Part shown: in pieces, positions 8,794 through 10,027 of the stretch
How the letters are laid out: every line of letters starts with the position of its first letter
How positions within the stretch are numbered: the first letter of the stretch is position 1
Source of the DNA: Halobacterium sp. KA-4
Lineage (GTDB): Archaea; Halobacteriota; Halobacteria; Halobacteriales; Halobacteriaceae
Assembly (NCBI RefSeq): GCF_021028995.1
Contig: NZ_JAJJZG010000002.1
Coordinates: 1-64,000, forward strand
Length of the DNA stretch: 64,000 nucleotides
Reading direction: 5' to 3'
Notes under the pieces: model-generated
Told to the model about the DNA's origin: nothing
Seen by the model: the letters and a program-made list of their open reading frames with translations, nothing else
Database searches by the model: none
Position numbers and translations under genes: made by a program

Positions 8794-9021
8794 TTACATC
8801 GAGATGTACGTCTCCGTGTCTTCGACGCCGTCCGTGTGCTGAATCTCGTCGGCGGCGATGTCCTTGACGTCGGTGGGGGAATCGACGTCGAGTTTGGCGA
8901 TGACGTCGACGTCGCCGGCGACGATGTGGGCGTCGACCACGCCGTCGATGGCGGCGATAGCGTCCAGGAGGCGGTCGGCTTCGCCGGTGTTGGCTTTGAC
9001 GAGGACGTAGGCGGTGACCAT
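8794..9021 (-). CDS. Stand-alone Lrp/AsnC ligand-binding (RAM) domain protein
   Basis: 75 residues, only the C-terminal ligand-binding alpha/beta domain of Lrp/AsnC regulators, without a DNA-binding helix-turn-helix. The pattern MVTAYVLVKANTGEADRLLDAI, VVDAHIVAGDVDVIAKLDV and ETYISM is typical. Such domains form dimers or octamers and bind small ligands, often amino acids. Its start is next to the trkA stop (9022), so it is cotranscribed with trkA. A related domain is encoded at 9791-10027 on the other side of trkA. Confidence 0.9.
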   Translation of the reverse strand: MVTAYVLVKANTGEADRLLDAIAAIDGVVDAHIVAGDVDVIAKLDVDSPTDVKDIAADEIQHTDGVEDTETYISM

Positions 9022-9702
9022 CTACGCCACCTCCGTGGCGGCGGTGGCTTCCCCGACGAGTATCTGGCGGACGTCGTCAAGCGCGTCGAATTCGGCGAGA
9101 ACGGCGATGCGGTCGCCGACTTCGAGCGTGTCGTCGGGCAGTGGGAGGCCGAGCGCGCCGTCTTTCTTCCCGAACGCGAGCAGGCGGGCGCGGGAGGGGA
9201 GTTCGAGTTCGCTGAGCGTGTAGCCGTGCATGGGGGCGTCTTCGGTGACGGCGAACTGCACGATTTGGAGATTCTCGGCGAGGTCGGCGATGGCGGTGAC
9301 GTTGCCGCCGAGGAGCGCGTTCTTCGCGCCGATTGCGCCGAGGCGTTCGGGGTAGACGATTTCGTCGACTTCCTCGGCGTACTTGCGGTAGATGTTCTCG
9401 CGGTAGTCCTCGTCGATGCGCATGACGGTGCGGCAGCCGTGGTGTTTGCCGACCATGCAGGCGACGAAGTTGGTGTTGAGGTCGCCGGTGAGTGCGCCGA
9501 GGGCGTCCACTTCGTCGACGCCGGCGCGTTCGAGGGTGTCCTCGTCGGAGCCGTCGCCCTCGACGACGGCGAATCCCTCGTTTTGCGCGCGCTCGGCTTT
9601 GTCGTAGTCGTTCTCGACGACCGTGACCTCGTGGCCCTCGTTGTGCGTGATTCGGGCGGTTCGGAGGCCGACGCGCCCGGCACCGACGATGAGGATGTGC
9701 AT
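9022..9702 (-). CDS. trkA: TrkA-family potassium uptake regulatory protein (RCK)
   Basis: 226 residues. It is a cytosolic regulator of Trk/Ktr K+ channels that binds NAD(H) or ATP. The N-terminal Rossmann RCK domain starts MHILIVGAGRVG (GxGxxG), with acidic VVENDYDKAE at the end of strand 2 and a GDGSDEDTLERAGVDEVDALGALTGDLNTN block. The RCK-C domain occupies about residues 140-226. No membrane TrkH subunit is encoded nearby. A TATA-like CCTATTTG lies 29 nt before the ATG. A longer form starting further upstream would cover this promoter and is less likely. Confidence 0.93.
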   Translation of the reverse strand: MHILIVGAGRVGLRTARITHNEGHEVTVVENDYDKAERAQNEGFAVVEGDGSDEDTLERAGVDEVDALGALTGDLNTNFVACMVGKHHGCRTVMRIDEDYRENIYRKYAEEVDEIVYPERLGAIGAKNALLGGNVTAIADLAENLQIVQFAVTEDAPMHGYTLSELELPSRARLLAFGKKDGALGLPLPDDTLEVGDRIAVLAEFDALDDVRQILVGEATAATEVA

Positions 9703-9726
9703 ACGCGTCGTAACGCGAGCGAGCGC

Positions 9727-9767
9727 CAAATAGGTTTGTGCTGCGTTACCACGCACCAATACTTTTA
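9727..9767. promoter_or_regulatory. Divergent promoters between trkA and Lrp-domain gene
   Basis: Minus-strand box (plus-strand reading CAAATAGGT, 9727-9735) is 29 nt before the trkA ATG. Plus-strand box ATACTTTTA (9759-9767) is 28 nt before the ATG at 9791. Both distances fit leaderless starts, so the two divergent units share an intergenic region of under 90 bp. Confidence 0.5.
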
Positions 9768-9790
9768 GTGTCGCCCACCGAACGGGACGT

Positions 9791-10027
9791 ATGGTTCACG
9801 CGTTCATCATGGTGAAAACCGGGGCAGGGACGGCCGCCGACGCCCGCGACCGCGTCGCCGACCTCGACGGCGTCGTCGCGTCCCACGTGGTCGCGGGCAA
9901 GTACGACGTCATCGCGGAGGTCGAGGGCAACGAGATGCAGGACGTCCTCGGCACGGTGTCGAACCGCATCGGCACGGTCGCGGGCGTCACCGAGACGAAA
10001 ACCTACATCTCGCTGTCCGCCGCCTAG
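9791..10027 (+). CDS. Stand-alone Lrp/AsnC ligand-binding (RAM) domain protein
   Basis: 78 residues, again a RAM domain without helix-turn-helix: MVHAFIMVKTGAGTAADARDRV, VVASHVVAGKYDVIAEVEG and TETKTYISLSAA. It is similar in layout to the protein at 8794-9021 and divergent from trkA. It may sense an amino acid or other ligand together with the TrkA protein; this is an inference from context. Its stop shares CTAG (10024-10027) with the convergent E1 alpha gene. Confidence 0.9.
   Translation: MVHAFIMVKTGAGTAADARDRVADLDGVVASHVVAGKYDVIAEVEGNEMQDVLGTVSNRIGTVAGVTETKTYISLSAA

Follow-up and report, generated by a model that had tools for sequence, protein, structure and literature searches.

The window, that is the whole 64,000-nucleotide stretch of Halobacterium sp. 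KA-4 DNA analysed here, carries a trio of genes in which trkA is flanked by genes for two stand-alone ligand-binding (RAM) domains of the Lrp/AsnC type, RAM1 and RAM2. This trio is a real and nearly class-wide module of the Halobacteria. The conserved synteny, the tight gap between trkA and RAM1, the joint loss of the two genes and the decay of RAM1 where trkA is gone together mark RAM1 as the predicted partner dedicated to this TrkA, which is KtrA-like with a single RCK. The features of the locus are as follows:

8794..9021, minus strand: RAM1, stand-alone Lrp/AsnC ligand-binding (RAM) domain of 75 aa; its gene is the downstream one in the trkA-RAM1 operon.
9022..9702, minus strand: trkA, single-RCK TrkA/KtrA-like protein of 226 aa with TrkA_N and TrkA_C.
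9703..9790, no strand assigned: intergenic region of 88 nt with two back-to-back promoters, seen as AT-rich boxes in 66 aligned regions.
9727..9733, minus strand: TATA-like box of trkA-RAM1, reading CAAATAG on the plus strand, some 26 to 30 nt before the start.
9760..9768, plus strand: TATA-like box of RAM2, around ATACTTTTA.
9791..10027, plus strand: RAM2, second stand-alone RAM domain of 78 aa, divergent from trkA.

Coordinates and Pfam matches bear out the three genes at the places where the first-pass annotation had put them, and also the layout it had described, with one RAM gene cotranscribed with trkA and the other divergent from it: RAM1 is downstream of trkA on the same strand, and RAM2 is divergent at a distance of 88 nt. 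The ATG of RAM1 abuts the trkA stop TAG with zero gap. RAM1 and RAM2 each have AsnC_trans_reg/RAM (PF01037) as the sole Pfam match, at 51 and 44.9 bits, respectively (cut-off 25); TrkA matches TrkA_N (PF02254, 89.4 bits) and TrkA_C (PF02080, 49.6 bits). Both RAM proteins had been described as lacking a helix-turn-helix (HTH), and indeed neither Pfam nor a check of the upstream frames found an HTH DNA-binding domain in them. The RAM1 frame is closed one codon before its start by the trkA stop TAG, and the RAM2 frame is closed by a TAG 20 codons 5' of its start; therefore no hidden HTH precedes either gene. Across the genome, PF01037 gave nine matches. Seven of them sit in open frames of 152-186 aa, and only the frames at the RAM1 and RAM2 loci are short (75 and 97 aa). 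The mechanical trkA open reading frame begins at TTG 9759; the conserved start is ATG 9702 (226 aa), with a TATA-like box that keeps a fixed distance to it in 66 loci, and this start sets the gap between trkA and RAM2 at 88 nt. PADLOC returned no match to a defence system.

Comparison of a RAM1/RAM2 profile with solved structures showed that its top four relatives are all stand-alone RAM proteins, with DM1 ranking first (E 7.9e-17). The solved relatives are PDB 2e1a/2cvi/2z4p, 2zbc and 2djw, which we take to be DM1, STS042 and TTHA0845, respectively. Like RAM1 and RAM2, these three are RAM domains without an HTH, with lengths of 75-92 aa. The GxxD turn is strictly kept, G36 and D39 being invariant in 29 aligned RAM1/RAM2 rows, and its Asp is presumably the residue of the effector pocket. 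RAM1 and RAM2 score below the Lrp/AsnC equivalog cut-offs of NCBIfam (AsnC, Lrp and LysM models), the scores being 25.1 and 31.6 bits where 227 and 180 bits are required. According to the available part of a 2010 review, DM1 switches between dimer and octamer with amino acids and forms hetero-octamers in vitro with its partner, the full-length Lrp-type FL11; the same part calls the physiological significance of stand-alone RAM proteins unclear and describes no link of DM1 to an RCK protein (PMC2995911). Stand-alone RAM genes also occur in other settings. In another family of the phylum (L239, L246 and L248), one abuts or overlaps the gene of a protein with an ACT domain and DUF5612 (L246 and L248 by Pfam, L239 by eye), another close pairing of a stand-alone RAM with a non-DNA-binding partner. 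At L245 (G338) a stand-alone RAM gene adjoins an aspartate dehydrogenase gene (Pfam), with other neighbours that resemble NAD biosynthesis genes by eye, and at L154 (G021) one immediately precedes a DHH/DHHA1 phosphoesterase gene, possibly a link to nucleotide signals.

Conservation of the trio in other haloarchaea had been set beforehand as a test of the proposed link, and the trio proved to be kept through the Halobacteria. RAM1 homologues were found in 222 of 292 Halobacteria genomes and in 67 of 77 genera, and most of the matching genomes gave two matches. We read out 77 of these loci: the 30 best, and another 47 picked for the most part as single representatives of their genera. In every one of the 77, trkA immediately precedes RAM1 and shares its strand; RAM2 adjoins trkA in 68 (66 divergent, 2 on the same strand) and falls outside the stretch read in the other nine, two of which (L058 and L067) have 1.5 kb flanks. 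Ten more loci from named records, Halobacterium, Haladaptatus and Halorussus among them, contain trkA, RAM1 and RAM2 without exception, and a RAM1 orthologue directly follows trkA in 87 of 87 trio loci. The trio is kept even where RAM2 shares the strand of trkA (L087, L111, L174 and L176-L178), lying upstream of trkA in L174 and L176-L178, which belong to additional loci that agree with the rest. The outer neighbours vary: in 47 loci read with flanks of 3 kb, tmk appears 23 times, a small membrane gene (M11) 19 times and the pyruvate dehydrogenase E1-alpha gene 13 times. The downstream genes of the window itself, cmk and cbf5, appear in none of them. The trio is held class-wide while the flanking genes change, and its conservation is therefore more than chance. 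Synteny by chance or hitch-hiking, with zero functional link, is barely credible: nothing beyond the general persistence of some synteny speaks for it, and it is already contradicted by the changing flanks and by the trios that survive with RAM2 on the same strand.

The stand-alone RAM proteins of the trio loci are 75-79 aa long, except for one truncated RAM1 of about 40 aa in a metagenome-assembled genome (L016, 6656-6775), whose mid-domain is missing in frame through a deletion or an assembly error. Two Haladaptatus loci (L010, 1576-2232; L011, 1227-1883) encode a RAM-less TrkA paralogue less than 5 kb from the trio, and their RAM2 lies about 2 kb away from trkA.

In all 87 trios, RAM1 begins between -8 and +3 nt from the trkA stop (+1 in 33, -1 in 21, +2 in 16, 0 in 15, and -8 and +3 in one each); the RAM1 start was taken as the one closest to the aligned start, which could narrow these figures slightly. 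A stop separates the two genes in every one of the 87 trios, and no natural RCK-RAM fusion was seen among them. Further analysis of 66 loci revealed AT fractions of 0.88-1.0 at positions -26 to -30 and of 0.94/0.86 at -10/-11 in the trkA promoter, and of 0.67-0.85 at -27 to -30 in the RAM2 promoter. The trkA-RAM1 and RAM2 transcripts are predicted to be near-leaderless, because these AT boxes lie at about -26 to -30 of the gene starts. In many genomes, an imperfect 19-bp palindrome close to GTGTGRYRNNRTAYCACAC stands between the RAM2 TATA box and start (L092, L093, L109, L115 and other trio loci); it was found neither in the window nor in the window's own genus. The palindrome half RTAYCACAC occurs in 23 of 69 regions; 100 shuffles gave 0.1 on average and never more than 1. 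Across 16 genomes, the pattern was present at the RAM2 promoter in seven and at six other places; as it is nearly unique per genome, a dedicated putative RAM2 operator is the simplest reading. A wider regulon was considered and dropped, the six other places in these 16 genomes lying, by eye, in or near unrelated genes with zero K+ transporters among them.

Structural similarity search using Foldseek gave TrkA, KtrA and MthK RCK structures as the best matches of the trio TrkA. In the alignment, its residues R10 and E119 fall on positions 15 and 124 of chain 7zp9_H, which, with an offset of one residue, we read as KtrA R16 and E125, the residues named in PDB titles and belonging to the nucleotide site and ring interface. 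Conservation of each reaches at least 95% across 92 trio TrkAs. Since the equivalents of KtrA R16 and E125 are retained, TrkA should be a working, nucleotide-binding RCK subunit. RCK proteins of this type form octameric rings. The Bacillus subtilis KtrAB system (4j7c) is similar in that RCK_N and RCK_C are contained in about 220 aa with the R16/E125 pair; however, no KtrB or TrkH gene is adjacent here, and trkA is accompanied instead by a coupled RAM gene and a divergent one. Thermotoga TM1088A:TM1088B (3l4b) likewise builds a TrkA ring from two separate gene products, as its PDB title states, but both of its subunits are TrkA-type, whereas the partner here is an unrelated RAM domain.

A TrkH gene at another locus had been suggested as a check, and four were found, all on contigs other than that of the trio, with no TrkH or KtrB gene beside trkA. 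Three of the four have a TrkA_N match of their own within about 2 kb. The orphan (C53, L038), with no TrkA close by, was searched in 30 genomes as a candidate partner and rejected: homologues of 67-95% identity occur in the trio-less genomes G067, G093, G042, G074 and G044, and no TrkH that tracks the trio emerged from this search. These results bear on a reading in which the assembly of TrkA and RAM1 is real but serves no K+ transporter, with the RCK part sensing NAD(H), ATP/ADP or c-di-AMP and controlling another transporter or an enzyme. We consider it unlikely. In its favour, the TrkH genes are unlinked, the one followed through 30 genomes does not track the trio, and TrkA stays below every TrkA equivalog cut-off of NCBIfam (PRK09496 set) among the models listed, with a best score of 122.3 bits against 293, these models having 445-466 positions or about two RCK units. 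Against it, the equivalents of KtrA R16 and E125 are near-invariant, and RCK proteins acting on channels encoded elsewhere are known. Co-folding of TrkA and RAM1 as a read-through chain (80 rows) gave a pLDDT of 84.2 and a pTM of 0.51; the individual domains fold, with their relative placement unsupported.

The link between RAM1 and trkA was also followed through gene loss in 22 chosen genomes, 13 without a RAM1 match and nine with a RAM match. The TrkA orthologue is missing as well in 10 of the 13 RAM1-less genomes; nine of these fall below the threshold, and the match in G080 (6e-31) lies outside the TrkA clade in the tree. The remaining three, G014, G044 and G073, retain TrkA on long branches with the RAMs absent (0.41 and 0.57 for the two lineages, compared to a median end branch of 0.14), and TrkA can therefore apparently work alone. 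A putative RAM-binding surface at TrkA residues 91-114, where residues lost in these three genomes seemed to cluster, was discarded as too weak, since a TrkA from a trio (L127) also has R91W and Y100 is kept in two RAM-less paralogues. Of the nine RAM-matching genomes, five carry the complete trio, G021 and G218 have other stand-alone RAMs that fall outside the RAM1/RAM2 clade, and G001 and G007 have RAM1 and RAM2 adjacent with trkA absent. Loci L152 and L153, from small genomes (2.1-2.2 Mb) of one genus in the same family, show RAM1 and RAM2 divergent and trkA absent.

At 30 near-invariant RAM1 positions (conservation of 95% or more across 86 trio RAM1s), G001 deviates at 11 and G007 at 10, compared to at most two in each of the 86 trio proteins. 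Their RAM2 deviates at none of 18 conserved positions. Because the RAM1 signature is lost and that of RAM2 kept where trkA is gone, the pattern points to a dependence on TrkA for RAM1 but not for RAM2, as judged from one event in two related genomes. The functional tie between RAM domains and TrkA proposed in the first-pass annotation is thus strong for RAM1, given the 77 of 77 loci and this decay, and weaker for RAM2, which is lacking from nine of the 77 stretches read and keeps all its conserved positions after trkA loss.

The same comparison weighs on two further explanations. RAM1 and RAM2 might be demi-regulators that form hetero-oligomers with full-length Lrp proteins, with TrkA, through its nucleotide or K+ state, setting how much RAM1 is free and transcription as the output. 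The DM1-FL11 hetero-octamers offer a precedent, the genome holds the seven PF01037 genes with longer open frames, and RAM2 survives the loss of TrkA with all 18 near-invariant positions intact; yet RAM1 sits beside trkA at every locus read and decays after trkA loss although long-frame RAM-domain genes persist, which leaves this explanation unlikely. A joint metabolite sensor made of RAM1 and RAM2, with TrkA a mere neighbour, would suit the adjacent pair in G001 and G007. It is very improbable, as RAM2 and not RAM1 is the member outside the stretch read in nine loci, trkA and RAM1 are never apart in 77, and the RAM1 signature disappears with trkA.

Phylogenetic analysis suggests that the trio TrkA is vertically inherited, since its tree largely follows the families. 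The second, RAM-less TrkA paralogue forms one clade (26 rows, 100/100), and several of its genomes also carry the trio. In a RAM tree of 76 columns, where one divergent additional RAM (L253) groups within them on a long branch, RAM1 and RAM2 are split by a 100/100 branch and share a common stem apart from the other sampled RAMs (97/95), as expected for an old duplication. Searches of 196 genomes of the phylum gave, among the matches listed, no member of the trio TrkA subfamily outside Halobacteria; stand-alone RAMs do occur there, but none of those compared by eye is adjacent to a listed TrkA place; the trio hence looks like a Halobacteria invention.

Returning to the reading of RAM1 as the partner of TrkA, we propose that the trio is a conserved module in which RAM1, possibly together with RAM2, makes the RCK ring of a K+ transporter responsive to metabolites, a model to which we give about even chances. 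It draws on the gene architecture, the conservation, the stop/start spacing, the co-loss and the RAM1 decay, and would add to them a complex, a ligand, a K+ transporter and a direction of control. The long branches of the RAM-less TrkAs, the retained KtrA residues and the DM1-like relatives of the RAMs also favour it. Against it stand the co-fold, which lends docking no support, the unlinked TrkH genes, the orphan TrkH found in trio-less genomes, the three genomes that keep TrkA in the absence of RAM1, the single event behind the RAM1 decay and the absence of natural TrkA-RAM fusions among the trios. TrkA, a KtrA-like RCK subunit predicted from its retained residues to bind a nucleotide, would assemble, as is typical of its family, into an octameric ring gating a TrkH/KtrB-type K+ transporter encoded elsewhere. 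RAM1 would be made by translational coupling from the trkA transcript and then bind TrkA; its dimer or octamer would close or open on an amino acid or other metabolite and shift the TrkA ring between states. RAM2, expressed from its own back-to-back promoter, may act as another sensor, which would probably mix with RAM1 and set the response, since RAM domains form hetero-octamers in Pyrococcus. More tentatively, and with some doubt on our part, a fourfold RAM1 (or RAM1/RAM2) octamer may stack on the fourfold TrkA RCK octamer as an amino-acid-gated lid, with a bound nutrient signal moving the ring between square and non-square states.

Related combinations are known. The haloarchaeal Lrp-TrkA_C proteins of the Trh2 type also join Lrp and TrkA domains; however, an RCK_C is fused there to a DNA-binding Lrp, compared to a full RCK protein with HTH-free RAMs here. 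These fusions and RAM-only Lrps are already described in the accessible parts of PMC8229911 and PMC4236453, and the former includes two RAM-only Haloferax mediterranei proteins with accession numbers two apart, which fits a trio. Similar in effect is Bacillus KtrCD, in which an amino acid tunes an RCK-bearing K+ channel: glutamate converts it to high affinity, and the portion of PMC7857571 at hand mentions no RAM domain. Within the open-access literature as far as it was accessible, subscription papers being mostly outside this scope, we found neither a published description of the trio nor a report of an Lrp-origin metabolite-sensing subunit on the gating ring of a K+ channel.

Haloarchaea counter the molar salt of their surroundings with molar KCl in the cell. 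The trio, a regulator with two ligand sensors, is a concrete and nearly class-wide candidate for tying K+ uptake to metabolism, and its gene organization suggests that potassium control may take direct input from nutrient levels. For stand-alone RAM proteins, the trio also supplies a defined non-DNA-binding partner. If the lid arrangement holds true, a metabolite-sensing subunit of Lrp origin would have been recruited to the gating ring of a K+ channel, and the molar KCl pool of haloarchaea would be coupled directly to their nitrogen or carbon status.
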